DNA of 64,000 nucleotides. Source: Candidatus Undinarchaeales archaeon. GTDB lineage: Archaea; SpSt-1190; JASMDC01. The translations under genes were made by a program, and so were the position numbers. Below the pieces are notes generated by a model. That model did no database searches and was not told where the DNA came from. It saw only the letters and a program-made list of their open reading frames with translations. This document shows positions 31,940-51,999 of this stretch, piece by piece; the first letter of the stretch is position 1; each line of letters opens with the position of its first letter. The DNA is taken from positions 1 through 64,000 of the forward strand of contig JASMDC010000003.1 in the NCBI GenBank assembly GCA_030753015.1, given 5' to 3'.

Positions 31940-34900
31940 CAGGCAGCACCCCTAACGTACAGATAGGTGCGTCGCCCCAAGTAGCCTACAATGGAGAGCA
32001 CGATGATGCCGTTGATGAGCCAGTGGGCTAGCACCTTGCGCTTCACTATGACCGAAACGTGGGAGTAGGTGCTCCCACCAAAACCATCGGTCGTCCTGAG
32101 ACTCACCTGGTGGTTTCCGGAGGGGAGATCCAGGAAGGTGCTGGACGAACTGGTCCGGACCACAACGTTCCCGTCCACCAGCACCGAGGTGATGACGTTG
32201 GACTGTTGCTGCCAGGTCAGGTCGAATCCCGCATGGACCTCGTCCCCGTCCGAAGGAGAGGAGATCGGTACATCCCAGTCCGCTCCCACCACGTACACGT
32301 CGCCAGCAGTCGATGTAACTATGATGTCCCGTCCATCGCCCATGTTGAACACGCCCGATCCGCGGATACCTAGTTCGCGTACGATACGACCCGTGGCGAC
32401 GTCGAGAACATAGAGCGTCGGAGACGGTCGCCCGCCCTCGCGCCCCACAAGCGCAGTGAAGGCAAGCTCGCGACGCCCGTCGCCTGTGATGTCGTTGATC
32501 GTGGAAACGGCGACCGCGGGCTGGAACTGGTCGACGTCCTTACGTCCCTTGAATAGATGCACCTTATCGATCTCCTGGCCGGAGACGAGGCTGTAGAACG
32601 TCACGGTGATATCCCTCTGCCACATGGCGGTGGCGACGACGGCCAGTTCGTTCACACCGTCACCGTCCATGTCCTTGACCACCGTGGCGGGCTCGATGTT
32701 ATCGATGCGGAGGGTATCGAGCATCCAGGTCTCCATGGGATGCGGGTACCTCCACCCATCCATGTTGGCACCGGACTGCTTCACGACCAATTCGGGCCCC
32801 TGCGGGCCCCACCGCTTGAACTGCATTAGGTCGTCGGCCCCGTCACCGTCGAGGTCACGGACCCAGCGCCCGCCCCCTGAACCATCATCATCCATGGTGA
32901 GCACGACCTTCCCGAACCGACTGTCAAGGACAATTAGCTGCTCGGGCATGTCCCTGCGGTGTACGCGCACACCGATGTCCGGACGTCCGTCCCCCGTGGC
33001 ATCGTCCACCAGACGGATGTTCTCCTTGTTGAAGTTAGCCTCCTCAGGACTCCAGCGCCACAACGGCCGCCAGCTTCCTGAGCGCTCGCTCTTGAGCACC
33101 AGCACTTCCTTCCAAGAGGCTAGTAAGAGCTCGTCAATACCATCGTTGTTGAAATCGCCCAATGATCGGAGGACGTTCCGGTCATTTTCGAGGAACGACC
33201 ACTCGAGCTTTTTCACGCGGTCTTCCTCCTCCTTACCGTCCTTGAAAGGATCCTGGAAGGACCATGCTTGGTTGGTCCTTGTGAGGAAGGGTTTCCCGGT
33301 CAGTCCGTCGAGGACGTACACCTCGCGCCAGCCGCTCACGAGCACGTCGTCCACATCGTCCCCGTTGAGGTCTGACAGTGTATCGACGGCCACAACCCGC
33401 TTGCAGATCCGCAGGTTCTGCTCCCGCTCCTTGACCTCCTGACGCATGCTCCTTGCCCGTTCCTCGGCATTCCTGAGCTGGTTACGCTCCTCCTCCTCCT
33501 CAGGAGTGCGCTCCCGCTTCCAGTCGAGACGCTTCAGCCGCTCCGAATCGACCCCCAGCCTCTGGTCGATGATCGACGGATCCTTGAAGATATCGTTCCA
33601 TGTCCCATAGTGGGTTCCATCTGCGACAGGAGTGCGCCAGATGTCAGTTCCCGTGGCGCCGGAGATGAGCACGATGCGGGTCCGATCACCGTACTGGTCC
33701 CCCCAATCCCAGTCGCCTGGAGCTTGGACGAACGCAAGGATATCACGCTTCCCGTCCCCGTCCATATCGTCCGTCAGACGCACCTGCTGGAGCGTCAGAC
33801 CCGAGAGCACGTCCTTGATGGGCACCCGATACTCCCAAGCTTGCTCGTGTGTCGCACCGTCCATGACGAAAAGAAGGCGCGAGGAGCCCTGGTCGTTATT
33901 GTCCTGAGGATTCGTACGCTCGGCGGAGAGCGCTAGGAGGTCCGGATTCTCGTCACCTACAAGGTCGGCTGTGAGGTAGGTAAGCCCCGCATAGCGAGGA
34001 TAGCTCCATTGCACCCGTCCGCGCATGTCTAGCATCACCAGATCGGTGCGGTCGGATGCGAGGACCACACCATCGCCGAATGGCAGCACCCACAGCGATG
34101 ACTTGTCAAGGGCGAGCGTCATGTTCGGCTTATAGGGTGCTAGCTCGGTCATGTTGGCAGCCCACAGACGGCTCATACCTGATGTGGTAGGCATCAGCAG
34201 GGTCTCGCCAATAACAGGGAGGCGCTCGACCTGTTGGAGCCCCGCATCGTGCCGGCTCCACAGGGTGTTCCCCCTGCGCGAGGAAAGGGCCACTAACAGG
34301 CGTTTCTTCCCCATGTATCCCTGGCCGTTCTGTTGCTGCTGCTCGCCCCCACCAGGCCAGGTGGCGGCCACGATATCCTCCTGTCCGTCCCCGTCGATGT
34401 CGGGGATGATTGCGATGCGGAGGTTGAAGTAGTTGTCCATGTCAGGGGTGGTGGGGGATAGAGATTGTCCACGCATCCCCCCTTTGTAGTAGCGTGATAG
34501 CATGAGGGCGTCGTACTCGAGCACGGTGGTGTTCCATTCAACTCGCCCCGCTCGACCATTGATGAGGAGCACATTACCATCCTCGGTAGATACTACAAGG
34601 GAGTCACCAAGGGGGACGATGTCCCAAACGCTCCGCGTGACCGTTCCCATTTCGCGGTCCGATCGAGGATCCCGGAGCACCAGGGGTTCAGCGGCACGGA
34701 TCGACCAGAGCTCCTTTCCTGATCGCGCGTCGATGAGATGGACACGTCCATCCTGGCATCCCGCCGCGATGTCCGGCCAGCCATCACCAGATAGATCTTG
34801 CGTGGCGATGATCCTGAACACGTCGTTCGCTGCATCGAACCGCCAAGACAGTTCGCCCGTGATCCCGTTCAACAGGAGCACAGCTGATCCAGAGGCAGCT

Positions 34901-35361
34901 ACGAGGTCCAGAGCACCATCGCCGGTGATATCACCTATGGTTGCCAGATCCCACGTGATGGTCTCGGCATCGGTCCATCGGAGCTGGGGATCGTAGGCCT
35001 CCACGGTTGGTGTATAGCTCCAGTGGACAGCACCCAGTCCGTCAAGCGCAACGATGTTCGGGAACACCTGGTCCCGTGTCGAGTAATAGAATAGGTCGCC
35101 TGCACGTGCGATGTCCGTAACGGCCGAAGAAGCGGCTAGGAACGCGACGCGCTCTCCTGATGCGTCGATGATGTGGACGCCGCTATCGGTCCCAATGGCG
35201 ATGCGGTCGTCCCACGTCTGTAACGTGGTTATGCTCCCTGATAGCCCGCTCGAGATGTGGGCAACAATGTCCTCGCCCGCGGTCACGATGGGGATGGCGA
35301 GCATGATGGTTACGAGCGCGATAGTCGCCCAAAGGGACCCGTGCGTCCAACTCTCGCTCAC
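31939..35361 (-). CDS. Large FG-GAP/beta-propeller surface protein
   Basis: Protein of 1140 aa with an N-terminal signal segment (TIALVTIMLAIPIVTAG), then at least ten D-x-(T/D/N)-GDG-x-x-(D/E)-type calcium loops (GDITGDGALDL, DIDGDGQEDI, DMDGDGKRDI, DLNGDDVDDV, DATGDGRPDI, DMDGDGVNEL, DITGDGRREL). These mark FG-GAP/PQQ-like propeller blades. Around residues 615-655 there is a charged coiled-coil insert. Near the end are an Ig-like segment (SPSDGDEVHAG ... GNHQVSLRTTDGFGG) and a C-terminal helix (LINGIIVLSIVGYLG) with a basic stop. GTG 35361 is chosen over GTG 35382, since the TATA-like CTTTTAAAAAG overlaps the latter. First gene of an ABC-transporter operon. Confidence 0.85.
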   Translation of the reverse strand: MSESWTHGSLWATIALVTIMLAIPIVTAGEDIVAHISSGLSGSITTLQTWDDRIAIGTDSGVHIIDASGERVAFLAASSAVTDIARAGDLFYYSTRDQVFPNIVALDGLGAVHWSYTPTVEAYDPQLRWTDAETITWDLATIGDITGDGALDLVAASGSAVLLLNGITGELSWRFDAANDVFRIIATQDLSGDGWPDIAAGCQDGRVHLIDARSGKELWSIRAAEPLVLRDPRSDREMGTVTRSVWDIVPLGDSLVVSTEDGNVLLINGRAGRVEWNTTVLEYDALMLSRYYKGGMRGQSLSPTTPDMDNYFNLRIAIIPDIDGDGQEDIVAATWPGGGEQQQQNGQGYMGKKRLLVALSSRRGNTLWSRHDAGLQQVERLPVIGETLLMPTTSGMSRLWAANMTELAPYKPNMTLALDKSSLWVLPFGDGVVLASDRTDLVMLDMRGRVQWSYPRYAGLTYLTADLVGDENPDLLALSAERTNPQDNNDQGSSRLLFVMDGATHEQAWEYRVPIKDVLSGLTLQQVRLTDDMDGDGKRDILAFVQAPGDWDWGDQYGDRTRIVLISGATGTDIWRTPVADGTHYGTWNDIFKDPSIIDQRLGVDSERLKRLDWKRERTPEEEEERNQLRNAEERARSMRQEVKEREQNLRICKRVVAVDTLSDLNGDDVDDVLVSGWREVYVLDGLTGKPFLTRTNQAWSFQDPFKDGKEEEDRVKKLEWSFLENDRNVLRSLGDFNNDGIDELLLASWKEVLVLKSERSGSWRPLWRWSPEEANFNKENIRLVDDATGDGRPDIGVRVHRRDMPEQLIVLDSRFGKVVLTMDDDGSGGGRWVRDLDGDGADDLMQFKRWGPQGPELVVKQSGANMDGWRYPHPMETWMLDTLRIDNIEPATVVKDMDGDGVNELAVVATAMWQRDITVTFYSLVSGQEIDKVHLFKGRKDVDQFQPAVAVSTINDITGDGRRELAFTALVGREGGRPSPTLYVLDVATGRIVRELGIRGSGVFNMGDGRDIIVTSTAGDVYVVGADWDVPISSPSDGDEVHAGFDLTWQQQSNVITSVLVDGNVVVRTSSSSTFLDLPSGNHQVSLRTTDGFGGSTYSHVSVIVKRKVLAHWLINGIIVLSIVGYLGRRTYLYVRGAA

Positions 35362-35381
35362 GTCACGTGAGTGCCGCTGCA

Positions 35382-35392
35382 CTTTTAAAAAG
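35382..35392 (-). promoter_or_regulatory. TATA box of the FG-GAP/ABC operon
   Basis: CTTTTAAAAAG (read TTTTTAAAAG on the coding strand), about 26 bases before the leaderless GTG at 35361. Confidence 0.5.
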
Positions 35393-35548: not shown

Positions 35549-36724
35549 ATGCACACTGAACGGCGGGTCCAGACGCGCCCGCGCTTCTCCTTTTCAGCAG
35601 GGGAGCCCGTCACAGCGTCCGCAGCGCTGGGCTTGAAGGGCAAGCACCCGTCCGGAGCGCATCGTACAAAACACCTGGCAGCAACGATGTTCATAGGAGG
35701 ACGTTACCGTAAGGTGCTTGTCACCCTCTCACCGCACGCCCTGGTTATAGAGCGATGTGACCGGCAGGTCCGCCTCGTTGCGTGCGCTCCCCACGCCATC
35801 GAGCAGGGAGGTGAGGACACTCTGGACCATGATATCTGGACCGGCGAGGAGGCCATCGAACTGCTCCGGTCCGGCGCAGTGGACCGCTGTGTGATATCCC
35901 TTCACAACCGCGGTCTGCTCGACTTCAATCGCTTTCCCTCACAACCCTTCGTCCAGTACGGCCGCACGGTCCGGAATCCACCCTATCGCCAGCCTAATCC
36001 CTACCACGGTTCACTTGACGCGAAGGTTGTGCTCGACCTTCATGGTTTCAGGTCCGGGACCCATAGTCGCGGCATCATCCTCGGCATCGGGAGGGTCGAC
36101 GAACTGACAATGAGAGACAGCAGGTTCGTGGGGGCTGTAAGGAGCAGCGCATCCTTTGGAGCCAACCTCCTTATCAGGATAGCTCGCGAGGCTCTCCGGC
36201 GGAGCCCTGGGATGACGCTGGAGCTGCACGCTTCCCTTGACCTGGTACGGCTCCCCTGTACCGCGGGCAACGTCCCTCGCGTCGTTCTCACCGAAGAGCG
36301 CTTGGTAGAGATGGGATTCGTGAGCGGAGAGCTTGTCGCTCTCGGACTGATCCATGACCGCAGCGGTCGGGTCGCAGGGGTGGAAATATGTCGTGAGGCC
36401 GCGGACACCGACGACGAACTCGTAGTCGAGTCAGGTGATCGTGAACGAGTGGAGCTCCCACGAAAGCTCAAGGTGACGGAGCGGATCGACTTGAGCGGTC
36501 GGCACGTCTTCACGTTCACCGGGCGAGGATTCCGTATTCGTGATGGGAGCGCATTCCGTCGCTATCTCCCGGGATTGCGTAACTACACCTTTCGCTATCT
36601 AGCAAAGAGGGGTGTTGCTTGCGTCCAGGTCGAGCAGACCAAGGGAGTGCGAGAGAGTTTCGCTCAACGGCTATCTGGAGCAGGGTGCGTTTTCCGCGTT
36701 CCAGAGGGTCAACGCTGGATGTAG
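35549..36724 (+). CDS. Possible N-formylglutamate amidohydrolase-like protein
   Basis: Soluble 391-aa protein without signal or membrane helix. Two segments recall the N-formylglutamate amidohydrolase/AGR-like fold: HNRGLLDFNRFPSQPFVQYG (family pattern R-x-x-x-D-x-N-R) and LDAKVVLDLHGFRSG (D-x-H). RGIILGIG and ASFGANLLIRIA would follow in the expected order. The C-terminal 140 residues are unrecognised. The match is by eye and weak, so function should be treated as open. A TATA-like CATTTAACA at 35518-35526 precedes ATG 35549. The 3' end overlaps the convergent giant gene by 16 bases. Confidence 0.5.
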   Translation: MHTERRVQTRPRFSFSAGEPVTASAALGLKGKHPSGAHRTKHLAATMFIGGRYRKVLVTLSPHALVIERCDRQVRLVACAPHAIEQGGEDTLDHDIWTGEEAIELLRSGAVDRCVISLHNRGLLDFNRFPSQPFVQYGRTVRNPPYRQPNPYHGSLDAKVVLDLHGFRSGTHSRGIILGIGRVDELTMRDSRFVGAVRSSASFGANLLIRIAREALRRSPGMTLELHASLDLVRLPCTAGNVPRVVLTEERLVEMGFVSGELVALGLIHDRSGRVAGVEICREAADTDDELVVESGDRERVELPRKLKVTERIDLSGRHVFTFTGRGFRIRDGSAFRRYLPGLRNYTFRYLAKRGVACVQVEQTKGVRESFAQRLSGAGCVFRVPEGQRWM

Positions 36725-39700
36725 GCATCGTAGTTGTAGTACTGACGTGCGCTGTAATAACTGCTGTAGTCAGAGTATGTTGGCGTCGCGGCCGCGGCCT
36801 GTGTCTGGGCAAGAGCGACCGCCGCCTCATCTTGTTTCCGCTTTCGGTATACAATGAGCACGAGGGTGAGCCCTATCAGGGTCACAACAGCGACGAGCGC
36901 GCCCACTGACGAGAGGAAGGACGACGCGTCCTCGTCACCGCCACCCCCGGTCACGACCTCGTCATCACCGCCATCGTCACCCCCATCAGAGCGTGCCCGC
37001 GGGGTCGCGGTGGCTGCTGTTCCCAAGGTGCGTCCGCCACCACCACCATCGTCACGGTCATTGCCAGTACGATGGTCCTTGGTATAGTCGAGCACCGTGC
37101 TGTCCGATCCACTCCCCCCGGTATCGGTATCGGCCCCCGTTCCGTTCCCGGGATCGGGTGACGGCGTGGGCGAGGGGGCCTCATCTTCCTCCTCTTCCTC
37201 CTTAGCAAAAACGTCGATCACCTTGCGGTCGTACCCCTTCAGCTCCATGTACTTGAGCAGGTCGTACCCTGCGGCCTTCTGTGCCCCTTTGTCCTGGTCC
37301 AGGAGATAGCCGGCCCGCTTGCGTCCCATGCAGCCTCCCAGACAGGCGGTGAGGTTAGCGGGCACCGACAGGCACTGATGGCACCGGCCGCATACACCCC
37401 GGTCCTCCTCCTCCGTGTAGACCTTCGCACATATGTCCCCAAGGAGCGCGTTCCCCACGCACTTCGCGACGCACGAATCCTGGCCCAGCGTCGTCACACG
37501 ACCTGCGCAGGAGGAGCACTGCATGCAGGCGCCCATGCACCCGTCGAGTTCAGGATGGTTACCGCAGAACCGAGCGCAGATGGCACCGAGCAGGCGGGAG
37601 CGGTCGACGCACCGTTCCACAAGGCATCGCCAGATCTCTGCAGGGCTCTTCCCTGTATCGCACAGTCGGCACTCGCGGCAGGAACCGTCGGTTATGTTGT
37701 ACTGTCGTGCCAGGGTGCTGCACAACCGCATCCGTTCCATGAACGACCGGATCATCTCCCGGATATGGCTATAGCACTCCTGCCCCCGCATGACGGCGAT
37801 GGCCTTGAGAGCGTACTTGATGGCCCGGATGTACTTCTCGCGCTCGAACTCCTTCTTGGCGTTCTCGATATGCCCACGCACCGCGGCCGCTTTGGAGTGG
37901 TCGCAGATGATGTCCTCGGTACCATCGCGTCCGCTGTAGGACAGCTCGTATAGCTCCTCCGCCTCCCTGATGCGCTCGATGGCCTCCTTGCGCAGAGCGT
38001 CAGGGTCCGTGTTGGCCGTGGGGGTGATGTACTCACCATGTTTGGAGTCCTGGTAGAGCGCGGCGTTCTTGAGCAGCTCGATGGCACGGTCCGCGTACCG
38101 TATGGCGTTACGGTACTCGGCCATCTCGTACTCATCCTCGGCCTTCTCGATGAGCTCCCACGCAACGATCTTGACCTCCTCGTTCGTGCTCTTGGCATGG
38201 AGCGCCTTGGCGGTCTCGATCCGCTGTCGTGCGAGCATAGCCAGCTCGTTCTGCTCCTCGCCTTCCAGACCGGACACCAGGCTCTCCAGGTACTCCTGGA
38301 GCTCGGGATCTGTGTCACGGGCCGCTTCCAAGGGATCCACCATCTTGTAGCAGCCGTCCCTCGTGGCCGTATTGGGGATCAGGTCGCATATTGTCCTTAC
38401 TCGGTCATAGGCCTCGTTGCACATGTCGATGACATCTATGAGCGGGTCCCCTTCCAGTCCGACGTTCTTGGCTCTCTTCCCTTTGTTGCATATCTTTGCT
38501 ACGGTGTTGAATGGAAGGTCGGTCTCTCGTTTGATGGCCTTCAGCTCCCGTTTCTTCGCTTTCTTGGCAGCATTGAGCAGGCAGCCGGACAGGCTTTCAT
38601 CGTCGATGACCGATAGGCAGATGGGCACGGACTCGTAGGGCGCCTTGGACATCTTAAGCTGGGCAATACCGGAGAAGCACGAGTCACGGATCTCCCGGAC
38701 GTTGTCTGGAGAGTGGGGGATACGTTCACATGCATCGATGGCTCTGGGGAATCCACCAAGGTCGTCACGGAACGCTACGTTAGTGGCCACCTGTGTGTAG
38801 CAGTTGCCACGCTCCATCGCCGAGGCGATCCAGGTACCACACACGTCCTCGGCCCTCAACGGTGGTCGGTTGGTGACCACGGCATTGAGCACGTCGTGAT
38901 AGCACTGATCACGGACATGGCGTCCGCGGTTCGTCGTAAGGATGGTGTTGATGCAGTCGCCGTTACCACAGTTGTCAGTGATGCAGGTGCCCGAGTAGTG
39001 CCAGCAGTTCTTTCCCCAGTCGCCGCACCCCTTGTCATTGTGCACGCACTTGGAGCGGAAGCATCCCTCGTCGATGCAGGGGACGTGACGCGCAGCATCC
39101 TTGTTGTAGTACATGGACGAATCCCATTCCTCGTCCTTGGCCTTCACTCTTGAGTTGATCTTGTGGCAGGTGCTCAAGGCCTTGGTGGTGTCAGCGTATC
39201 GCAGGGAGTAAGCTGATGAGCGGTAGCATTCATTGCGGTCGGCCCATAATGATTCAAGGCACTCGGTGTGGCAGTCGTCGCGGTGGCTTGCGGCGATGGC
39301 GTTCTTGTCGCAAGGATCATCGTCAGGGCACGTCACAAGGTTGGGATCACCTTTCTCGTCGCACTTCCATGGATCGGCCGCGCACGTGGTCCCGAAGTCG
39401 ATGATCCGCGTGTCGTAGGACGAGCATCCGCCCACGACGACGTCGGCAGCGATGTCGCCGTACAGCGTGCTTCCGAGAGTGTGATAACATTCGGTGCGCT
39501 TGTACACATAGGGGATGCGGGCACAGTCATCGAAGGCGTACCTGAAAAACTCCCTGTCCGCGAACCGACGCGACATGTCCTTGTAGCAGTTGGTCCTCCG
39601 CAGTAAGGAGCGGAAGTAGGTCCAGCCATTCTCGTAGCCCCACGTGAGCCAGTGGCGCTCATCCGGTTCAAGATCGCACGAGTCGCCTGTGTGGGTCCGG

Positions 39701-41745
39701 TGCTGCTTGTAGACCAGCTTGGGGCCGGGGCCCACGAGGCACTTGTCCCGCTTGTCCCTCTCTGAAGCGCGCCCGCATTCGAAAACGCCGAGGAAGAAGT
39801 CCGGATCATGAGCGTACCCTTCGTAGAAGATGGCGTTGCCCAGGACGCACCCATCCCATTCTTTAGCCCCCTTGGGAAGGCAGGGACGGAGCGTGGGCGT
39901 GCCTTGGCCCATGAGTTCCTCTACCCTGTTGGTGCAATGGGTCTGGATGCGGCTCTCCTCGAAATCAAATTTCTCGTGGTAGGCGATGGACGAGCGGTCG
40001 TATGTGAAGTCGTCCTCCGACCGGGGCATATAGCGTATCTTCTTGACGCACACCTCGTTCTCGCACCGCCCCTCGAAGTCGTCGCATTTGGTGGTGTCAG
40101 GACGGGATATGCACTCGAACGGCCGGGCGATGTCCACACAACGACCGTTGAGGCACGCACCCTCACCCGAGTCGCACGGCACACCGTTCGCCCACTCGCC
40201 GAGGTCCTCAAGCGCGTCATCCTCGTCCAAGGAGGGCTTCGCCTTGGTGACACGCGCAGTCGAGCACATGTCCTCGGGCTCCATGAGAAGAGGCACGCAC
40301 GTATTGTACCAGCAGAGGCCCGTACGATCGCCACAGGGTGCGCCATCGGCTCCCGAGGTGCAGTCCTCGTTCCCCTCCAGTACGGTCCGGATACAGGTCT
40401 CACCGAGGCAGATGCCGAATCCACGGTTGCATCTGTAGCCATCGGTCCCGGCACCTCGGCACTCCCGGTCGCGGGTTCCTGACTGGTCCACACAGGAACC
40501 GTACATGCACTTGCCACGGAAATAGTTACATGGTTGACTGTCCGTCTTTTGGCCGCACCCGTCGAACGGCGAGGCCAGCTCCAAGCAGATACCTTTGAAG
40601 CAGATGCCCAGAGCCGAGTTGCACCCCGTACCGTCCGCGCCACACGCCGCGCCCGGGACATGCTCAAGGCACCGCCCGCCGCCGCAGACACCGAGACCCC
40701 CGTAGCATCCAGCACCGTCGTCCTTGTCCCGACACTCGTCTCGGTACGGGAGGTCGAGCACGCACCATGCGTGCAGGCAGGTCCCCTTGCCCTTCTTGCA
40801 CTTCCTGCCGTTACCCTGTCCAGCGCACTCGTCCGGCTGAGGGAACAGTATCTCCAGACCCTTTTTCTGCCAGCAGATACCGCGTCCATCGGCCACCAGC
40901 TCGCCATCATCGAGCCCCTTGCCTTCGTTACCGCGCTTACACGTGAAGTCGAGCAAATTGTTGCCCCAAACAAGGGCCGCGCATTTCTCTGCGATGCACG
41001 TTCCGAACCCGCCGTTGCAGATGGAGCCATCCGCCTTGCCATGACACTCGTCGTTGTCAGGATTAACAGGGATGCATGGCCCGAGCAAGCAGACGCCCTT
41101 CTCGTTGTCGCAGGAGTCTCTGTCCCCCTTGAAGGTGCATCCGTCGTAAGGATCGATGATCTCCATACAGTGTTTCGCGTGGCACACACCGGTGTGTTTG
41201 GCACAACGCTGGCCGTCCGAACCGTCCCCACAATCGCCCGGCTCCTTCGCGATCGTGGCTCGGCAGGCCCCGGTGACACAGATCCCTTTACTATCACCGC
41301 AGGACTGTCCGTCCTCGCGTCCCGAACATTCCGTACCGGAGACGACGGTGATATTGGTGACCATGCCCGAGCAGATGTCGTACCCGGTCGATTCCTGGTT
41401 ATTGCGTTTGGTATGCTGGATGGCGACATATCGCGCAGCTGTAGCGTTGCGGAGGGTGTCCAGGATAACGTTGAGGATGCCTAACGCAGCATTCGTGTTG
41501 CCGATGTTCGCATAATACTTTACAGCCTCTGTACAGAACTCGTCTCGTGCGATCCCGGCCTGTACCCTGCAGCGCGAGCGGCAGCGGGGCCGAGCGGCTT
41601 CGGACTCGGAGATGCAGCTATCATAGCACGTACTGAGCTGGTCGGAGTAATACCCATTATAGTCCCAATTAATGTTAAAGAAGCCGACCGAAGGAGAGAG
41701 CACCAATATCAGCGCCAGAATGATCGCAACATGTCGTCGGACCAT
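36709..41745 (-). CDS. Giant cysteine-rich cell-surface protein with Tyr-rich cytoplasmic tail
   Basis: Protein of 1678 aa: signal peptide (VAIILALILVLSPSVGF), then about 13 tandem modules of roughly 35-45 residues (residues about 135-570) of the form C-x4-5-DG-x2-C-x4-G-x-C-x4-C (for example CSGREDGQSCGDSKGICVTG). A long region with scattered Cys pairs follows, then helical repeats (about 1150-1330) and three copies of a second module, C-x2-C-x2-C-x(10-13)-C-x3-C (CRECRLC, CMQCSSC, CGRCHQC starts). It ends with an acidic/Gly/Thr linker, one helix (VGALVAVVTLIGLTLVLIVY) and a tyrosine-rich tail (YSDYSSYYSARQYYNYDAY). It follows the 2392-aa gene by 9 bases. Probably disulfide-stabilised and membrane-anchored; role unknown. 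Confidence 0.85.
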   Translation of the reverse strand: MVRRHVAIILALILVLSPSVGFFNINWDYNGYYSDQLSTCYDSCISESEAARPRCRSRCRVQAGIARDEFCTEAVKYYANIGNTNAALGILNVILDTLRNATAARYVAIQHTKRNNQESTGYDICSGMVTNITVVSGTECSGREDGQSCGDSKGICVTGACRATIAKEPGDCGDGSDGQRCAKHTGVCHAKHCMEIIDPYDGCTFKGDRDSCDNEKGVCLLGPCIPVNPDNDECHGKADGSICNGGFGTCIAEKCAALVWGNNLLDFTCKRGNEGKGLDDGELVADGRGICWQKKGLEILFPQPDECAGQGNGRKCKKGKGTCLHAWCVLDLPYRDECRDKDDGAGCYGGLGVCGGGRCLEHVPGAACGADGTGCNSALGICFKGICLELASPFDGCGQKTDSQPCNYFRGKCMYGSCVDQSGTRDRECRGAGTDGYRCNRGFGICLGETCIRTVLEGNEDCTSGADGAPCGDRTGLCWYNTCVPLLMEPEDMCSTARVTKAKPSLDEDDALEDLGEWANGVPCDSGEGACLNGRCVDIARPFECISRPDTTKCDDFEGRCENEVCVKKIRYMPRSEDDFTYDRSSIAYHEKFDFEESRIQTHCTNRVEELMGQGTPTLRPCLPKGAKEWDGCVLGNAIFYEGYAHDPDFFLGVFECGRASERDKRDKCLVGPGPKLVYKQHRTHTGDSCDLEPDERHWLTWGYENGWTYFRSLLRRTNCYKDMSRRFADREFFRYAFDDCARIPYVYKRTECYHTLGSTLYGDIAADVVVGGCSSYDTRIIDFGTTCAADPWKCDEKGDPNLVTCPDDDPCDKNAIAASHRDDCHTECLESLWADRNECYRSSAYSLRYADTTKALSTCHKINSRVKAKDEEWDSSMYYNKDAARHVPCIDEGCFRSKCVHNDKGCGDWGKNCWHYSGTCITDNCGNGDCINTILTTNRGRHVRDQCYHDVLNAVVTNRPPLRAEDVCGTWIASAMERGNCYTQVATNVAFRDDLGGFPRAIDACERIPHSPDNVREIRDSCFSGIAQLKMSKAPYESVPICLSVIDDESLSGCLLNAAKKAKKRELKAIKRETDLPFNTVAKICNKGKRAKNVGLEGDPLIDVIDMCNEAYDRVRTICDLIPNTATRDGCYKMVDPLEAARDTDPELQEYLESLVSGLEGEEQNELAMLARQRIETAKALHAKSTNEEVKIVAWELIEKAEDEYEMAEYRNAIRYADRAIELLKNAALYQDSKHGEYITPTANTDPDALRKEAIERIREAEELYELSYSGRDGTEDIICDHSKAAAVRGHIENAKKEFEREKYIRAIKYALKAIAVMRGQECYSHIREMIRSFMERMRLCSTLARQYNITDGSCRECRLCDTGKSPAEIWRCLVERCVDRSRLLGAICARFCGNHPELDGCMGACMQCSSCAGRVTTLGQDSCVAKCVGNALLGDICAKVYTEEEDRGVCGRCHQCLSVPANLTACLGGCMGRKRAGYLLDQDKGAQKAAGYDLLKYMELKGYDRKVIDVFAKEEEEEDEAPSPTPSPDPGNGTGADTDTGGSGSDSTVLDYTKDHRTGNDRDDGGGGGRTLGTAATATPRARSDGGDDGGDDEVVTGGGGDEDASSFLSSVGALVAVVTLIGLTLVLIVYRKRKQDEAAVALAQTQAAAATPTYSDYSSYYSARQYYNYDAYIQR

Positions 41746-41754
41746 GAAGGAGCC

Positions 41755-44700
41755 TCACTCGAGCGGTTTGAACATGCAGTTGTCGCAGGTGCAGAGGTTG
41801 AACACGGCTGTACATCCAGACCTGATCTCGACAGAGCATTCGGGATTGCATCCATCGCACTCAATGGCCAGTCGGCACTGGTCGTACCGGGTCGTGGACA
41901 GTATACGCACCTTCTCCTCTCCACCGCCGCCGGGGCTTGCTCGTAAGCGCCATGTCCGCGCTACGGTGTCCAGCCACTCTGCACTATTGACATCAATCGC
42001 GTTGAGCTCAACGACATGGTCGTTGGGCTCGAGGATGAGCGAGCCACCACCCTCTATTTCCTGGGACGTGCGTCGTGCACGCGCCTCGAAGGTGGTCCGA
42101 AGCGTCTCGTCGTCACCACGAAAGATCTCCAAGTTCGTGAAGACCTCGCGATGTACCGTGTTCAGGTCAGTGTCGCGTACGATCAGCTCGATGTTCCCCT
42201 GGAAGTTCGTGCCCATGTCGTTGCGGAGCTTCGCCCGCAAGGTCACATCCTCTCCATCGTACACCGACTCCGTCATTCTTCCCCCGCTATCAGCGAAGTC
42301 GATGCCCGTGAGGGTAAGATAAGGATTATGCACGACAAGGGCCAGTTCGGGGAACCGCTTGGCATCAAGTACGATCTCAGTGTAAATGAGGGACGGATCG
42401 TTGCGGTCCTTGACGACCACGGTCACATTGATGAACCCTCCCGCCATGTAGGTCCCGATGGATCCCAGCATCCCGGTCTTTATGGCTACCGGCTTATACG
42501 GCTCGAGAGCAGGATAATCGTTGTTGAACGTACCGGAGATATCGGTGCCCTGGAACTCAGCGAGATTGGCTATGATGGAGACCTGCTTGGTATCTGAGTA
42601 GGAGGAAACCACTTCCAGGATCGCTTCCACCGAGTCGCCCGGGTAAGCGTCCGTCGACCGCAGGTCGTTGATAAAGAACGCCGCATCCATGACCGAGATT
42701 GTGTTCGGTTCGGGTACGAAGATGCGGGGCATGACCTCGGACTCGACACGGTTTCCGGCGAAGAGGAGCGCAGCGTCCGCGAGCAGCACTTCGTTCTGCA
42801 TGGCCGCCGTCACCTCAAGCTCGAGGGAGATGTGACGTCGTGTGTCCGGGGACACGGAAATATCAGGGATCGTGCGGCTGAGGAGCGTCTGGGTCGATGT
42901 CCGGACCGTCAGCTGGAGCTCGCCGTTTGTTAGCGGATCGAGATAGTCAGTAATCTCGGCACGGAGCGTCAGTTTCTCGCCGACCTTTGCCACCCGGACC
43001 GGCTCACCGTCCGCGTCGAGCCACTCAAGGGCGGAGATGGATGGCTTCGGCCTCTTTGAGACGACGACCTCGTTACCGATGGGCACCTCCTCCAGAACAC
43101 CCTGGCAGCAGTATCCGCTGCTGCTGGTCGACGTGTGGCATTCGTCGATTTCGCCGCTGCCCTGCTCGTCGCAGTAGTCCTCAAGGCGCTCGATGGTGTC
43201 CTCGGACAACGCGGGCTCGCACCGAGCATCCTCCAGCACGAGCGGGAACAGGCCCGTTCGGCAGGCACAGCGCTTGCTGCTCGGCAGGCAGTACCCATCG
43301 GTACCGTGCTCTTGGAGACAGAGCGGCGAACAGGTATCGTCGACGGGGACCTCGCCATCGGGACACTCCTCGAGGTTGTACACGCACGAGCTATCACAGC
43401 ACAGACCCCGTCCCTCGTCGCATGCCACGCCATCGTTGCCAGCACATACTTCCTCGCCGCCGCCTTCACACGACTCTCGCTCGAGGAAGCATCGTCCGTT
43501 GCAGCACAGACCATCGCCGTCGGAGCACTCATCACCGTCATCGATACAGTCCTCTTCTTCCTCGATGACCTCCTCACAGCTCTCGCGGTCGGCGGTGCAC
43601 CACCCTTCGCAGCAGATGCCGTGATTGCCCGAGATCGTGTTGCACTGCGACTCATCCTCGCGGAGCTCACAGCAGGATGCCACGTTCTCGCAAGAGTCAT
43701 CGCAACAGATTCCGAACATGCACTGGCGCCCGTCCCGGACCCCGAGGCACTCCTCATCGATCTCCTCTTCACCCTCGAAGGGCAGCTCCTCCTCTCCCCC
43801 CTCATATGGTCCGCCGAGGGCGTCCGATGAAGCGGAGTAGAACAGACAGTCCGTGTCGTGCCACATGAAGTCGCCGGGGGAGGATGTCTTGAGGTTGTAA
43901 AGAGCGCAGCGGGTGATGATGCCGTACCGCCAGATGTACTTCTCGTAGTCGGGGGAGATGTCGTCCTCCTTGAACTGGTTCCAGGAGCAGGCGCGGTTGA
44001 TGATCATCTCCAGAGATGACGAGCGGGAGGCGTCATTGTAGAAGGACTTGGTCCACATCGACATCTCGTCAAGCTTCTCCTCGTAGTCCTCGAGGCTCCA
44101 CGACTCGCTACCGCCCGTGAGGCCGCCCTTGCCCACGTCGACCGAGTCGGCGGCCTGCCAGGACGCCTTCAGCCCCTCCAGTTCTTGTCGGATGTCGTTG
44201 TCGCAGGAGCCCGACACGGTGCAGGTGCGTGCCTTCTCCCGTAGCTTCTTGACCCACATGAGACCGGTCTTGAGGATCCCGCCGTCCTTGACCAGCTCGT
44301 TAGTGTATTTAGTTAGCTGGTTGACCTTGAAAGTGTAGGTCATGGGATCGTGGGTGTCACCGATCGAGAATAGGTCCGGTTCCACGGAACAGATGTCGTC
44401 GACGATGCCCGTGCGTTTCCCGCACTCCTTGGCCACCGACCATGTCGGGATCTGGAACGGGATGCCTATAGGTGAGGAGAATGGCTTGTTAATCTGGCAC
44501 TGGACGGGGATGAGCATGGAGGCAAGTGACGAGATCCAGCACACGGTGCAGGAGTTCCACCACAACTCGCCCGCCATCGGCGGGTATGGCGCATAAAGTG
44601 GTATCCCGAACAGGCACATCTCTCCGATGCCATGCTGGAGCAGTTCCTTGCCCTGCGCGAACACGCAGAACCCGGTCTGCACGCCCATGCCCACTTCGAT

Positions 44701-47700
44701 CACGACCAGGTTATTGAGTATGTTCTCATAGAATGTAATCGCGTTCTCGTAATACTTCACAGCGGTGTTGTAGTAGATGTAGAGGTTCGGATGCGCCTTC
44801 TCGGGACAGGCGATGAAATGCTTCATGAACTTGACGTCGCATGCCACGCCCGAGAGACAGAACGCCATGCACACGGCCTCGCCAGCAAGCTCCGCACCCA
44901 TCTGGCCCCACGAACCGCCACCGCCTGTGAGCTGGGAACCGACACCGCCGGGTGCGAAGAGCGCCGTGCACGTCATACGGATTCCATAGAGCGTAAGGAT
45001 GGCCTCGAGCTTACTGTCACCGGACTTGTCGCACCCCTCGAAGCAGGCCAGCCGCGCGGCCACGTCCTCGACGAAAGCGCACTGGCCCTTGCACCCTTGG
45101 CAGTCATCCATACAACCCCCCTTATCATAGGCAGAGAAGCACACCGCATCGCAGATGCCGTTGGTGATCTCTACCGCAAGGTCGTCGATGCACTGGGCCG
45201 CGCACTGCTTGAGGTCAGGGGCGGTCAGCGGGCACATCGTGCACTTCTGGCACACCTCCATGCACCCGGGTTCTCCCCCGCACAGCTCCTGACAGATGTC
45301 GAACAGGATGCCGTTTACACAGTCCTTTGTCCCTTCGAGGAGACACTCTTTGATTTCCCCGCCCTCCTTCCCTGCGCACTGGACGTTGGATCGGCAGCAG
45401 GTGATGCATGTCAGCGGATTGGGGAAGTTCGAGCAGAAGGCGTCGCACTCGATAAAGAGCGACTGTGCACCGATACAACCACCTAGACAAGCGAGGCGGT
45501 CACCTGCAGGTCGCCTGCAACACATACCGCATCCGAGGCACACCTCTTTGCACGACTCGTACGTGCCCTCGTCCCGCCCCTCACACGCTTGCTCGCACAG
45601 GCCGGTTATGAGAGGTGGGCACACACAGTCGAGGAAGCAGCGGTCCCGAGAGCGTTTCGTGTCCTTGAATAGGCACTCCGTACAGCCGCAGCATTGGTCG
45701 AAGCACGGGCCTGACGTCTCGCCCTGGCATACCCACGGGCACGACGCTTGGCAGATGTCCAGGGCGTTGATGCATCCCTCGTTCACTAGGCACTCACGTA
45801 CCTTGCGGGCACCACCCGCCCACAGGCACTTGGTGCATCCGAGGCACGCACCGATGTCGATACCCGCGCTGGCCTCGAGCTCCTCGCAGATGTTTGTGAT
45901 GATGATCCCCGACTTGTGGAAGAGACAGCCCGTGATGCACTCGGTCAGCTGCGCCGGCTCCATGTCACCGTTGCATCCGTACGGACATCCCTGGCAGACG
46001 ACGCAGGTTGACACGCAGCGGGTGAGCTCTTGGCCGGAGAGTCCCAGTTGGTCCTGGCAGACGGTGAGGCAGGGGATCTCCAGTGGATTCCAGCAGCTCT
46101 TCAGGCAGTTGTTGCGCTTCTCCTTCTCCTCGATGTCATAGCAGGCGAGGCATGAGTCGCACACATCGTAGCATGACTTCATCTTGAGGTTGTTGGAATA
46201 GTCCGCACAGTTCGGTGTGAGCTCGATGAGGCATTCCCCGTGCATGCAGATGCCCCGCCTGGTGGTGAGGTCGTCGAAGCACACCTTTCCGTCGGCCCCA
46301 TCCTGTTTGCATACGGATGGGACCTTGATGGTATGAGCTATACAGGCTGGGGGCCGCCCGCCCGGGTAGACGCACACACCGCTACCCGCCGAGCACCACA
46401 CCTTACGGCCACGCTCCTGCCGCTGCTGGGCAACGGAGCACTCCTCGCGCCCGTTCCCTCCCAGCTCCATGCACTTTCCCTTGAGGCACACGTGCCCGGT
46501 CGTCTCGCACAGGTACCCGTCCGGCGCGGGCTTCGTCTTCTTTGTCTTGGGGTCCTTGTAGGTGCATCCACTGGACTTGCCGTAGTGGCACTCGCCACCG
46601 AAGCAGAACCCGCTGGACCCGGACTTCTCGGGATCGGTGCAGGGCCGCCCTTCGCTGTTGGGCGCTTTACATGTGATAGGTATCTTTCGCGCGCGACGCA
46701 CGCACGCCAGCCCCCCACCGAACATCCGCTTGCAGTACTGGGGGGGTTTCTTACCTTTGCACTCGGACGGAGTGTTGGGCAGCATCAGGCATGTGCCCTT
46801 AGAGCGGTAGCAAGTAGAGCCCCCGCCGGTCGCTAGTTCGCAGCTCCACTGGCCGTTCTTCTCCGTACACACCCCCTTCTGGCCGCCCGAGGCGGTGCAT
46901 GTCATGCCCGATGTCCCAGACTTGCCGCAGTCGGCCTGGGTGAGGACCTTGCAGTACGCGCCCACTTCTACACCCGAGCTGAGGCCCGCCTGTACCCCTT
47001 CCATGCATACGCCCTCGGCGCCATCCGCGGTACGACAGGCGTGACCAGAGGTCAGCATAGTGCACTGGTCCTCCACGGCCTGGTACTTGCCTGCGCACTC
47101 TTGATAGTTATAATCGGCCAGCTTCATGCACCTGCTCTGGAAGCAGATGCCATCCTTGGAGCATCTGTCACCATCGGCCTTGCCGGTGCACGGATTCTTC
47201 GTGGCGGGCAGCACGGTCTGCACGAGCGAGTCGAGCTTGTCGCCCAACGCGTCCACTGAGCATCCGATGGGCGTATGACAAGCTATCTTGCACCCGAGCT
47301 CGAAGGCACACTTCTGGAGGCACGTCGTACGCTCCTCCTTCGGGCCGAAGAAGCAGAACGTACACTTCTGACAGAGGTCTGTGCACACACCCACCTTCAT
47401 GCTTGGTTCGCACTGTGGATCGGAAATCGTGACCTCAGAGTAGGTCTCGGTCACCGTAGTAACGCCCGACTCCGGATCGTAGTCCTCGTACTTACTGTCC
47501 TGCTGATATCCAAGGTGGATGTCGCCTCCGAAGAGGTTGCTATCACCGAATGCAACATCAGCGAAGTTCTCGCACGCGATGGTGCACACCGCGCCCCCCA
47601 GGCAGTTCATAAGTAGGCATCGCCCGACCGCCTCGCCCCAGCTCTCGTCACCCTGTGGCTTGGCGAGCAGGCAGTACGCGCAGTTCTGGCAGATGAAGTT

Positions 47701-48933
47701 ACCGCGGTCCTCGCAATTGTCCTTATTGATCTCGACCCCCATGAACTCTACTTTATCCTTCATGTTCTTGCACATGACGTTCTTGACGATGAGCGGGCAA
47801 ACCTCGTACTGGAGTATGCAGGTGATGGTGCAGTTGAGGATCTTTTCCCCGTCCCAGATGAACTTCTTCTTCTTCACGTCGTAGTAGAAACCCTCGTTGA
47901 TACACTCGCCGCACTTGTAACAGATATCGAGGCAGGATGACTCATCGATGTCCACCGGCTCGTCGGACATCTTCTGGATGAGGGCGTCACCACCAGTGCA
48001 GATACCGGCACACATGGGGCCGATGATGAGCGCGCGGACGCCACAGGCCATGAAGCAGTTGGTTTGTTCCTGCTTACCATCCACGATGATGCACTCGCAA
48101 CAGTCCTCCACCAGTGCGTTGCACTCGTACTCCACCTGCACCTGCAGCGCCTTCTTCTGTGGGATGAAAGAGAATATCCCCTCCATCATGTTCTCGCAGA
48201 CCTCCCCCAGGAGTGGGGCTGCAAGCGTCTTGCACATGCATTTGCTGATGAGGCACTTGTTGAAGACCTCTTTCCGTCCCTTCGAGGTCTTGGGGCCACC
48301 TGAGGTGGGTATCAGCGTCAAGAGGCACTGACCACAGTTCTTGCATACGTTGAAGAGCAGTTCGTTATTACTCCGACAGGGCGCCTCGCATCCCATGATG
48401 TCCTCACAGACCTCGGAGAGGATTAGGTCACCTAGACAATGCTCGACCCAGCAATTGCTCTCCTTCGAATCACCGCCTGAGCCCGAGTCCGTGATGAAGC
48501 AGTCCAGGCACCCGCAACCGATCTCAACGCACTCGTCCGTGCGGACCCTGGGTATCCACGAGGATATGGCGTACTGGCAGGGGGGCTTGAGGATCATGTC
48601 GCAAAAGGGCTTGCCCAGGCACCGGATAAGGCAGGAAGTTCTCTTGCCCTCGGGCTCCAGGGCGCACTTCACGCACTCGATACGGGTGCAGAGCTTAGTG
48701 AGGAAGGGATCGCCACCGCACAGCTCCTTGCACAGGGGATTGATGATGGCCAGCAGCTGACGGATGACGCATTCCTGAAGACATTCACTGCGGGCTCCCG
48801 AGTCACTGATGCGAATGCACTCACCGCACTCGTAGCACATGTCGAGCATCTCGTCGCCCTTGATCGTGAAGTACTTACCAGAGGATGCCGTTGTGGGAAG
48901 GAGGAAGAGAAGGAACAGTACGAGCACCGCCAT
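41755..48933 (-). CDS. Giant cysteine-rich secreted protein
   Basis: Protein of about 2392 aa. After a signal peptide (VLVLFLLFLLPTTASS) there are about 16 modules of C-x2-C-x2-C-x(8-25)-C-x3-C (CYECGECIR, CYKCGECIN, CQKCTFCFF, CLGCTKCLW and others), interrupted by a block of EGF-like C-x4-DG-x2-C modules (residues about 590-930). A Cys-poor helical region (about 1440-1750) is followed by further CC-containing modules (ICCDDSCENVASCCEL) and three Ig-like/CARDB-type beta domains (about 1990-2340). It ends CDGCNPECSVEIRSGC plus a short Cys tail. No C-terminal membrane helix is seen, so it may be held by the anchored partner encoded 9 bases downstream. ATG 48933 has an adjacent GGGAGG. Function unknown. 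Confidence 0.85.
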   Translation of the reverse strand: MAVLVLFLLFLLPTTASSGKYFTIKGDEMLDMCYECGECIRISDSGARSECLQECVIRQLLAIINPLCKELCGGDPFLTKLCTRIECVKCALEPEGKRTSCLIRCLGKPFCDMILKPPCQYAISSWIPRVRTDECVEIGCGCLDCFITDSGSGGDSKESNCWVEHCLGDLILSEVCEDIMGCEAPCRSNNELLFNVCKNCGQCLLTLIPTSGGPKTSKGRKEVFNKCLISKCMCKTLAAPLLGEVCENMMEGIFSFIPQKKALQVQVEYECNALVEDCCECIIVDGKQEQTNCFMACGVRALIIGPMCAGICTGGDALIQKMSDEPVDIDESSCLDICYKCGECINEGFYYDVKKKKFIWDGEKILNCTITCILQYEVCPLIVKNVMCKNMKDKVEFMGVEINKDNCEDRGNFICQNCAYCLLAKPQGDESWGEAVGRCLLMNCLGGAVCTIACENFADVAFGDSNLFGGDIHLGYQQDSKYEDYDPESGVTTVTETYSEVTISDPQCEPSMKVGVCTDLCQKCTFCFFGPKEERTTCLQKCAFELGCKIACHTPIGCSVDALGDKLDSLVQTVLPATKNPCTGKADGDRCSKDGICFQSRCMKLADYNYQECAGKYQAVEDQCTMLTSGHACRTADGAEGVCMEGVQAGLSSGVEVGAYCKVLTQADCGKSGTSGMTCTASGGQKGVCTEKNGQWSCELATGGGSTCYRSKGTCLMLPNTPSECKGKKPPQYCKRMFGGGLACVRRARKIPITCKAPNSEGRPCTDPEKSGSSGFCFGGECHYGKSSGCTYKDPKTKKTKPAPDGYLCETTGHVCLKGKCMELGGNGREECSVAQQRQERGRKVWCSAGSGVCVYPGGRPPACIAHTIKVPSVCKQDGADGKVCFDDLTTRRGICMHGECLIELTPNCADYSNNLKMKSCYDVCDSCLACYDIEEKEKRNNCLKSCWNPLEIPCLTVCQDQLGLSGQELTRCVSTCVVCQGCPYGCNGDMEPAQLTECITGCLFHKSGIIITNICEELEASAGIDIGACLGCTKCLWAGGARKVRECLVNEGCINALDICQASCPWVCQGETSGPCFDQCCGCTECLFKDTKRSRDRCFLDCVCPPLITGLCEQACEGRDEGTYESCKEVCLGCGMCCRRPAGDRLACLGGCIGAQSLFIECDAFCSNFPNPLTCITCCRSNVQCAGKEGGEIKECLLEGTKDCVNGILFDICQELCGGEPGCMEVCQKCTMCPLTAPDLKQCAAQCIDDLAVEITNGICDAVCFSAYDKGGCMDDCQGCKGQCAFVEDVAARLACFEGCDKSGDSKLEAILTLYGIRMTCTALFAPGGVGSQLTGGGGSWGQMGAELAGEAVCMAFCLSGVACDVKFMKHFIACPEKAHPNLYIYYNTAVKYYENAITFYENILNNLVVIEVGMGVQTGFCVFAQGKELLQHGIGEMCLFGIPLYAPYPPMAGELWWNSCTVCWISSLASMLIPVQCQINKPFSSPIGIPFQIPTWSVAKECGKRTGIVDDICSVEPDLFSIGDTHDPMTYTFKVNQLTKYTNELVKDGGILKTGLMWVKKLREKARTCTVSGSCDNDIRQELEGLKASWQAADSVDVGKGGLTGGSESWSLEDYEEKLDEMSMWTKSFYNDASRSSSLEMIINRACSWNQFKEDDISPDYEKYIWRYGIITRCALYNLKTSSPGDFMWHDTDCLFYSASSDALGGPYEGGEEELPFEGEEEIDEECLGVRDGRQCMFGICCDDSCENVASCCELREDESQCNTISGNHGICCEGWCTADRESCEEVIEEEEDCIDDGDECSDGDGLCCNGRCFLERESCEGGGEEVCAGNDGVACDEGRGLCCDSSCVYNLEECPDGEVPVDDTCSPLCLQEHGTDGYCLPSSKRCACRTGLFPLVLEDARCEPALSEDTIERLEDYCDEQGSGEIDECHTSTSSSGYCCQGVLEEVPIGNEVVVSKRPKPSISALEWLDADGEPVRVAKVGEKLTLRAEITDYLDPLTNGELQLTVRTSTQTLLSRTIPDISVSPDTRRHISLELEVTAAMQNEVLLADAALLFAGNRVESEVMPRIFVPEPNTISVMDAAFFINDLRSTDAYPGDSVEAILEVVSSYSDTKQVSIIANLAEFQGTDISGTFNNDYPALEPYKPVAIKTGMLGSIGTYMAGGFINVTVVVKDRNDPSLIYTEIVLDAKRFPELALVVHNPYLTLTGIDFADSGGRMTESVYDGEDVTLRAKLRNDMGTNFQGNIELIVRDTDLNTVHREVFTNLEIFRGDDETLRTTFEARARRTSQEIEGGGSLILEPNDHVVELNAIDVNSAEWLDTVARTWRLRASPGGGGEEKVRILSTTRYDQCRLAIECDGCNPECSVEIRSGCTAVFNLCTCDNCMFKPLE

Positions 48934-49035
48934 CCTCCCTCGTAAAGCTACCAAAACTTTCCCCTCAGGCGAGACGCAAAACAGCTCTCGCTGACCAGTA
49001 TAGGATTATTCATTTGCACGCTTTAAACCTTTGGT

Positions 49036-51045: not shown

Positions 51046-51174
51046 ATGATGACCGTGGAGTCATACGCCCATATCGACTTCATCAAGGACTTCGATAGCT
51101 ACTTTGCTACCGATGGGATTGAACTCAACGAGAACCTCAACGACCAGTGGGCGAGCTGGATGATCTACTTCTAA
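51046..51174 (+). CDS. Small acidic/aromatic protein, 42 aa
   Basis: Short ORF rich in Asp, Asn, Tyr, Phe and Trp, ending DQWASWMIYF, preceded by a TATA-like box. ATG 51046 and 51049 are both possible. It lies just upstream of the pilin-like cluster but has no membrane segment. Codon use looks like the chromosome. Not recognised. Confidence 0.5.
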   Translation: MMTVESYAHIDFIKDFDSYFATDGIELNENLNDQWASWMIYF

Positions 51175-51273
51175 GGTCCGCGAAAGCGCCTCCTTGCACG
51201 TATTCACCCTGCGAAATGGAGTGCTGGCCAACAAACTATATAAGGAGCCATGGGCACATCAATCTACAGGGAC

Positions 51274-51489
51274 ATGGCGACGCCATTGTCACGTCTGATG
51301 CGGGCGAACCGCGGGGAGGAGGAGCAATCCCTCCTGCTGGTAATCATCGTGGCAGTGATGGTTTTCGCCGTGCTCTGGCTCGCCATCGCAAAGTCGGGCC
51401 GAGCGGTCGCCCTGGTGTTCGCAGGTTTCTTCAAGATGATCTGGAGCACCATCAAGGGGATGACCGGGATGGATTACCTGTTCAGGTGA
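51274..51489 (+). CDS. Single-helix pilin-like protein, first gene of cluster
   Basis: 71-aa protein with basic motif RLMRANRG (residues 7-14), a short EEEQ, and a membrane helix (LLLVIIVAVMVFAVLWLAI) followed by a second hydrophobic stretch (AVALVFAGFFKMIW). ATG 51274 is chosen from a TATA-like ACTATATAAG at 51235-51244; ATG 51250 lies too close to it. Begins the 19-gene cluster. Confidence 0.65.
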   Translation: MATPLSRLMRANRGEEEQSLLLVIIVAVMVFAVLWLAIAKSGRAVALVFAGFFKMIWSTIKGMTGMDYLFR

Positions 51490-51494
51490 AGGGC

Positions 51495-51689
51495 ATGGGA
51501 CGGCTCACCGATCTTATTCGCAGTCGGCGCGGCGCCATGGGCGAAGCCATCGAGATCAACTTCTGGACCATCGTCGCTGTGCTCGTTGTGGCCGTCATCG
51601 TGTTCACGCTCTACAATTTTGCTCGACAGGCCCAGCCATCCTTCGTTCAATGGATAGCGGACATAATGGACATGTCCATGGGTGAGTGA
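51495..51689 (+). CDS. Single-helix pilin-like protein
   Basis: 64-aa protein: LIRSRRGAMGEAIEI, with the R-R-G/A boundary just before the helix FWTIVAVLVVAVIVFTLY, and a short amphipathic end (FVQWIADIMDMSMGE). A Glu lies at +4 to +5 from the predicted cleavage, as in class III signal peptides. Starts 5 bases after the previous stop. Role unknown. Confidence 0.7.
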   Translation: MGRLTDLIRSRRGAMGEAIEINFWTIVAVLVVAVIVFTLYNFARQAQPSFVQWIADIMDMSMGE

Positions 51690-51690
51690 T

Positions 51691-51945: not shown

Positions 51946-51988
51946 AATTGGTAGGTAGGTACATCAAATTACTACTACCCAATGACAA

Positions 51989-51999
51989 CTTATATAAAA
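51989..51999 (+). promoter_or_regulatory. TATA box of the main surface-protein operon
   Basis: CTTATATAAAA, the best TATA match in the area, about 40 bases before ATG 52035, in the 89-base gap after the first three genes. A GGGAG ribosome-binding-like site at 52024-52028 is consistent with a leader of about 15 bases. Confidence 0.6.

Follow-up and report, generated by a model that had tools for sequence, protein, structure and literature searches.

A giant cysteine-rich protein pair in an Undinarchaeales archaeon and a genome-wide family of related giants, some with cell wall hydrolase domains

Introduction

What do two giant cysteine-rich proteins, encoded side by side, do in an archaeon? 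The question is raised by a stretch of 64,000 nucleotides from a Candidatus Undinarchaeales archaeon (SpSt-1190; assembly GCA_030753015.1, contig JASMDC010000003.1, positions 1 to 64,000), referred to here as the window, which encodes the giants P0002 and P0001 in adjacent open reading frames (ORFs). An initial annotation of this DNA, made from its sequence alone, described two proteins built from shared modules, which might form a secreted or anchored complex and which suggested an active disulfide-forming pathway. Here we report that this curious pair leads to a genome-wide system of about 20 giants, to which all M23 and NlpC/P60 domains detected in the genome belong.

Results

P0002 belongs to a family of giant proteins

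When the draft genome (3.85 Mb) was searched with P0002 as a single sequence, long paralogues were returned, the best of them on contig C36 (E 1.5e-61). We defined a family, named G, by the C-terminal module over which P0002 was aligned with 19 paralogues, namely three Ig-like domains and a terminal Cys knot. A profile of this module detected about 20 giant carriers on 14 contigs, plus weak fragments. All 20 clear members (1,066-2,845 amino acids [aa]; 39,241 aa and 2,432 Cys in total) end in the three Ig-like domains followed by the conserved Cys-rich terminus, and they are mostly 20-55% identical to one another. P0002 matched the hidden Markov model (HMM) at E 7e-112, being itself among the rows from which the model was built. 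P0001 was not matched and shares with the family only the DG modules and helical repeats described below; judged by its sequence, it is not a G member. The observation of two giant proteins thus stands, but they are not a lone pair.

No G protein was found in nine relatives of the same class, whose genomes measure 0.6-1.1 Mb, and a profile search of the phylum returned only the genome of origin. When profiles of G and of its partner A (see below) were run against 394 archaeal genomes, the matches outside the genome of origin were weak and local (E 3e-6 to 9e-4), those of the G module being Ig-like; because only a few candidates per genome were scored, the absence of G and A elsewhere in archaea is likely, not absolute. 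No homologue was found in a profile search of viral contigs, nor in a scan of genome contigs that used two short seed patterns and is weak evidence. The literature, with preprints and most subscription journals not covered, held nothing matching these Cys-rich archaeal proteins. The 3.85-Mb genome is also the only one in its family.

Sibling giants carry wall hydrolase domains

Pfam models of peptidase M23 matched G proteins of contigs C20, C21, C41 and C53, and those of NlpC/P60 matched G proteins of C20 and C46 and two of C53. A whole-genome search yielded four M23 and four NlpC/P60 domains, every one of them inside one of six G proteins, whose scaffolds measure 1,887-2,170 aa. The HxxxD and HxH motifs were intact in three of the four M23 domains, as were the catalytic Cys and His in three of the four NlpC domains. 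Further, the ES, GIMQ and YN motifs of SLT-type lytic transglycosylases were recognized by eye in three domains (C20, C21 and C41). Other cargo comprised Kazal domains in three giants of C39, one of them under the curated cut-off, and FG-GAP repeats in the G protein of C117. No enzyme was detected in the two closest paralogues of P0002, both on C36; the cargo of these two and of P0002 is a solenoid of eight-Cys repeats. To our knowledge, archaea lack peptidoglycan, and the natural target of the G hydrolases would therefore be the bacterial wall. Killing of bacteria by wall hydrolases from archaea has been demonstrated (PMC12352652).

G genes adjoin genes for two partners, A and B

Many G genes have two further genes, A and B, as upstream or downstream neighbors. 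Alignments showed that A (908-1032 aa) has a signal segment and about 26 Cys, and that B (596-642 aa) starts with RRGQ followed by a hydrophobic helix, an N-terminus that resembles archaeal class III pilin-type signals. The A-B pair adjoins G on C21, C30, C36, C39, C41 and C117, at distances of -34 to +15 bp, the negative values being overlaps, and lies close upstream of G on C29; further pairs were found near the end of C25 and, as a second copy, on C39. The third G protein of C39 holds a B-type domain within its own chain (residues 353-765, E 1e-120), suggesting that B and G act together.

Some neighbors of these genes are recorded in their own right. Contig C20 (1133-13689, minus strand) holds a two-giant pair that mirrors that of the window with the gene order reversed: a 2,153-aa G protein with M23, NlpC and SLT-like domains and a 2,032-aa Cys-rich protein with a C-terminal transmembrane segment. 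Beside it (C20:14235-19373, minus) is a 1,712-aa homologue of alpha-2-macroglobulin with MG2, bait region and thioester domain, which is unusual for an archaeon. On C41 (25634-31622, minus) about four similar ORFs of about 500 aa form a tandem array; the one that was scanned is a clostripain-family (C11) peptidase.

Architecture of P0002 and P0001

P0002 measures 2,399 aa from a TTG codon (48954), at which the ORF opens, and 2,392 aa, the length first given, from an internal ATG seven codons later (48933). The two ORFs, both on the minus strand, are separated by 9 bp (41746-41754). Cys makes up 223 of 2,399 residues (9.3%) of P0002 and 115 of 1,678 (6.9%) of P0001, compared with 0.5-2.0% in six housekeeping-type genes of the window. 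Both proteins begin with hydrophobic signal-like segments, and a C-terminal transmembrane segment was predicted from hydropathy in P0001 only (around residue 1614). The window also encodes Orc1/Cdc6, both PolD subunits and a TCP-1-type chaperonin, indicating that the host is archaeal. Positions, spacing, Cys richness and the restriction of the anchor to P0001 thus agree with the initial annotation. Its picture of an archaeon with modular proteins of disulfide type that are secreted or anchored is likewise supported.

The motif CxxCxxC-x5-30-CxxxC occurs 10 times in P0002 (shuffled sequences: mean 0.35, maximum 3) and three times in P0001 (mean 0.03, maximum 1), and a strict DG motif occurs six times in P0001 (shuffled maximum 0). 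Iterated HMMs counted 14 copies of the helical-type repeat in P0002 and three in P0001, and 11 copies of the DG/EGF-like module in P0001 and three in P0002. The two shared module types proposed earlier were therefore recovered, with the same three helical repeats in P0001, slightly fewer in P0002 (about 16 had been counted), and 11 and three DG modules in place of about 13 in P0001 and several in P0002. The helical repeat has more conserved Cys than the five of the formula first proposed: across 43 copies, eight Cys columns are kept in 77-100%, with the consensus CxxxCxxCxxC-x11-CLxxC-x10-CxxxC.

A three-repeat piece of the second repeat block of P0002 was modeled by AlphaFold2 as all-helical (mean predicted local distance difference test [pLDDT] 85.6), and fold searches of the PDB (best Foldseek E 0.5, best Z 5.2) and of viral structures gave no clear match. 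The helical hairpin core that follows aligned with that of the siblings (hhalign probability 98.8, E 4.5e-17, 268 columns). The model of the Ig-like region reaches pLDDT 81-95 in most blocks and is interrupted by low-confidence breaks around residues 2184-2203. Its matches in the PDB were generic folds of Ig type, led by the Wzt carbohydrate-binding domain (Z 12.8, root-mean-square deviation 2.1, 109 residues); P0002 also matched Pfam Wzt_C weakly (E 0.068). The resemblance to Wzt is evidence of fold, not of function. The DG modules of P0001 and of the G protein on C25 share 37-38% identity.

Neither protein had a convincing match in Pfam, NCBIfam or the PDB, where only sub-threshold matches appeared, and so no known family with an assigned function was found that would undercut the novelty first claimed for the modules. 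Pfam models of EGF type gave no match for either protein even at E 1, and no catalytic domain was found in them at that threshold. One candidate identity for P0001 or P0002, NCBIfam Heimdall-CTERM (E 0.38), was dismissed. The features of the two proteins are listed in Table 1.

Table 1. Coordinates of P0002, P0001 and their parts in the window.
Feature	Position	Strand	Basis or remark
P0002, giant Cys-rich protein, family G member	41755..48954	minus	ORF call, G-model match
P0002 N-terminal signal-like hydrophobic segment	48880..48954	minus	sequence and hydropathy
P0002 residues 37-561, first eight-Cys helical repeat block, 7 copies	47272..48846	minus	HMM
P0002 residues 928-1316, second eight-Cys helical repeat block, 7 copies	45007..46173	minus	HMM, AlphaFold2
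P0002 residues ~1383-1706, helical hairpin core common to sibling giants	43837..44808	minus	hhalign
P0002 residues 1736-1858, DG/EGF-like Cys modules	43381..43749	minus	motif and HMM
P0002 residues 1968-2344, three Ig-like beta-sandwich domains	41923..43053	minus	AlphaFold2; common to 20 paralogues
P0002 residues 2355-2399, terminal Cys-knot-like motif C-x5-C-x2-C-x3-C..C..CxC	41758..41892	minus	alignment
P0001, giant Cys-rich membrane-anchored protein, 1,678 aa	36709..41745	minus	9 bp downstream of P0002
P0001 residues 140-570, 11 DG/EGF-like modules	40036..41328	minus	HMM
P0001 residues 571-1160, irregular Cys-containing region	38266..40035	minus	sequence
P0001 residues 1353-1484, three eight-Cys helical repeats	37294..37689	minus	HMM
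P0001 predicted transmembrane segment	36838..36906	minus	hydropathy, sequence
P0001 Tyr-rich putative cytosolic tail after the transmembrane segment	36712-36837	minus	sequence

Disulfide formation and export

The DsbA family (PF01323) had 11 matches in this genome, compared with 0-2 in the nine class relatives. In several of these, two or more DsbA domains are combined in one membrane protein, and the fusions on C92 and C63 show the order CPFC, a central CDAC/CDSC region and CPFC, a PDI-like layout. The expansion supports the prediction of disulfides and, together with the signal segments, suggests indirectly that the cysteines of the pair may be disulfide-bonded. The C41 cassette, in the order G-A-B on a single strand, is followed 72 bp downstream by a gene for SecA (823 aa; C41:11278-13749, minus; L120:478-2949). 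This SecA is full-length, with SecA_DEAD, preprotein cross-linking, wing/scaffold and P-loop domains (E 7e-230 to SecA in the PDB). Archaea have been described as lacking SecA (PMC2910488). The contig also encodes a TrmB-family regulator and its tetranucleotide profile matches that of the window (r 0.906), suggesting that it is probably the archaeon's own.

The membrane-anchored fusions with two or three DsbA-family domains are those of C92 (625 aa), C63 (761 aa), C59 (704 aa) and C29 (195483-197585, 700 aa); the one of C29 instead matches a Pfam model of vacuolar-sorting-receptor thioredoxin-like domains (E 1.6e-16). A pilin-like ORF of the window (55663-56160) has a Cys-rich tail, CDCIVYLHMRN...ECKKAHACP, which by eye resembles the C-terminus of the double-DsbA fusion of C63 (L029:4403-6688), CDCMVFLKNRG...ECKAAHGCA.

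Other genes around the pair

Beside the giant pair, about 11 small Cys-rich ORFs (51147-62039, plus strand), each with one N-terminal hydrophobic helix and a pilin-like appearance, form a probable pseudopilin cluster; those that were scanned had no Pfam match. On the other side, a 1,147-aa FG-GAP/PQQ beta-propeller protein (31939-35382, minus) seems to share an operon with the ATPase and permease of an ABC transporter (29973-31939). Elsewhere on the same contig (C51:104057-116449, minus) is a 4,130-aa ORF with a signal segment and 636 Cys (15%), whose C-terminal tail (LHPG...GFHP) resembles that of a 2,502-aa Cys-rich protein on C46.

Discussion

We favor, with moderate confidence, a reading in which the G proteins serve as extracellular scaffolds, stapled by disulfides, and cooperate with A and B on the surface of the cell to present modules for adhesion or lysis. 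The scaffold that the members have in common runs from a signal segment through a helical hairpin core and Cys modules to three Ig-like domains and a terminal Cys knot, and variable cargo modules are inserted into it; it would form a stable extracellular rod or platform whose many disulfides come from the expanded DsbA system. A, secreted and Cys-containing, and B, pilin-like and held in the membrane by its N-terminus, would probably help to project the modules from the cell surface. The six siblings with M23, NlpC/P60 and, by motif, SLT-type cargo would make contact with bacteria and attack them; because of these wall hydrolases, contact with and attack on bacteria is the most likely role of the family. 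The window pair would be an enzyme-free version: P0002 would serve as spacer or adhesin, its G scaffold bearing a long helical solenoid stapled by disulfides, and P0001, rich in Cys and anchored in the membrane, would be a partner that may tether P0002.

Several points weigh against this reading. Neither A nor B was detected on the contig of the window, all 154,779 bases of which were read, and no enzyme was detected in P0002 or P0001. A complex of the two is a possibility suggested only by the 9-bp spacing and the shared module types; expression and surface localization of the giants are likewise predictions from sequence. A key residue is lost in two of the eight M23 and NlpC domains (first His to Asp in the M23 domain of C21:806-7132, Cys to Gly in an NlpC domain of C53:19368-25262), so that some copies may bind rather than cut. 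No Pfam cell-wall-binding domain exceeded its cut-off in P0001 or P0002, nor in those parts of the siblings that were scanned, which lay outside their C-terminal modules. The active disulfide pathway first proposed finds support in the DsbA expansion but not in a re-oxidant, as neither DsbB nor VKOR had a match in the genome. Finally, the draft genome has an estimated contamination of 5.01% and no archaeal 16S match.

The giants could instead be structural, forming an S-layer-like sheath or extracellular matrix in which disulfides provide rigidity and remodeling enzymes were occasionally recruited. The high Cys density, the enzyme-free P0002 and P0001, the many paralogues in a single genome and the tandem Ig-like domains, whose structural matches include the biofilm scaffold RbmA, all fit a sheath. 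However, wall hydrolases are concentrated in the G family of an organism that would have no peptidoglycan to remodel, and cargo as divergent as M23, NlpC, Kazal and FG-GAP suggests diversified targets, not one lattice subunit; we consider a sheath unlikely, though it is the best placed of the alternatives.

A second alternative, which we regard as rather improbable, is that the giants are adhesins for another archaeon or a surface, as proposed for the giants of DPANN episymbionts, and that the window pair has no antibacterial role. The long modular ectodomains with a membrane-anchored partner and the likeness of the Ig-like domains to the carbohydrate-binding domain of Wzt agree with it, as do the small genomes of the class relatives, which are of a size typical of symbionts. 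Yet the genome studied here is unreduced at 3.85 Mb, the siblings carry bacterial-wall hydrolases, and an Ig fold by itself is no proof of sugar binding.

That the cysteines are metal or redox ligands instead of disulfides is very improbable: frequent CxxC spacing and the missing re-oxidants would suit it, but the signal segments, the extracellular-type domains, the many DsbA proteins and the regular spacing of eight conserved Cys per repeat would not. Least probable of all is a chimeric assembly with bacterial contigs binned alongside the archaeon, since, despite the contamination estimate and bacterial-type genes such as the SecA beside one cassette, the G gene of the window shares its contig with archaeal replication genes, the tetranucleotide signatures of G-bearing contigs match the window (r 0.78-0.94, on which ground contamination as their source was judged unlikely), the SecA contig has a TrmB-family regulator, and the paralogues are too divergent to be strain duplicates.

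The favored reading of G proteins as module-presenting scaffolds can be extended, tentatively and with more doubt than belief, to a new class of archaeal contact weapon, a surface apparatus of A, B and G. In this extension, giant disulfide-stapled G arms would carry interchangeable peptidoglycan-cutting heads, an acquired SecA would aid export and PDI-like multi-domain DsbA proteins would assist folding, in a large-genome archaeon of a small-genome class that preys on bacteria. For some DPANN, predation or a 'vampiristic' way of life has been suggested (PMC9723730). There is a real chance that the apparatus is categorically new. If the system is confirmed, it would contribute a new architecture to the recently opened field of bacterial killing by archaea and would show a heavily disulfide-dependent secretome in archaea; the adjacent SecA would question the rule of SecA-free archaeal export. 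The locus also supplies a new disulfide-laced helical repeat with no clear structural match.

Comparison with known systems

EGF-like and disintegrin-like modules and the Cys-rich surface proteins of Giardia combine tandem small disulfide modules in a Cys-rich ectodomain with a transmembrane anchor and a short tail. The window proteins share this layout of tandem modules, with the anchor in P0001, but neither had a Pfam match to EGF or to the Giardia family even at E 1. The C-terminal module has the Ig-like beta-sandwich of the MG domains of alpha-2-macroglobulin and complement, the Wzt carbohydrate-binding domain and RbmA; it shows no sequence relation to them beyond the weak Wzt_C match, and Foldseek TM-scores of 0.12-0.23 indicate a generic fold. 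The SPEARE proteins of Nanohaloarchaeota, giant modular proteins proposed for cell-cell attack or adhesion (PMC6642349), are likewise archaeal and mostly extracellular, with a C-terminal membrane anchor as in P0001. In contrast to them, P0001 and P0002 are Cys-rich and G is a paralogous family with A-B partners; no serine protease, laminin-G/adhesion or restriction-endonuclease domain was found in P0001 or P0002 (Pfam, E 1), and a non-G giant on C46 (2502 aa) carries a LamG-like domain.

A further parallel is offered by the archaeal modular peptidoglycan hydrolases proposed as antibacterial weapons (PMC12352652), with which the siblings share M23-type domains. In G, however, the catalytic domains sit within giant Cys-rich scaffolds with no known Pfam cell-wall-binding domain, and P0002 has no catalytic domain. 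Precedents exist both for giant, modular proteins at the cell surface and for wall hydrolases in archaea. What is new, as far as our searches reach, is the scaffold of G, its cassette with A and B, the helical repeat with eight Cys and the placement of all M23 and NlpC domains in a single family of giants.

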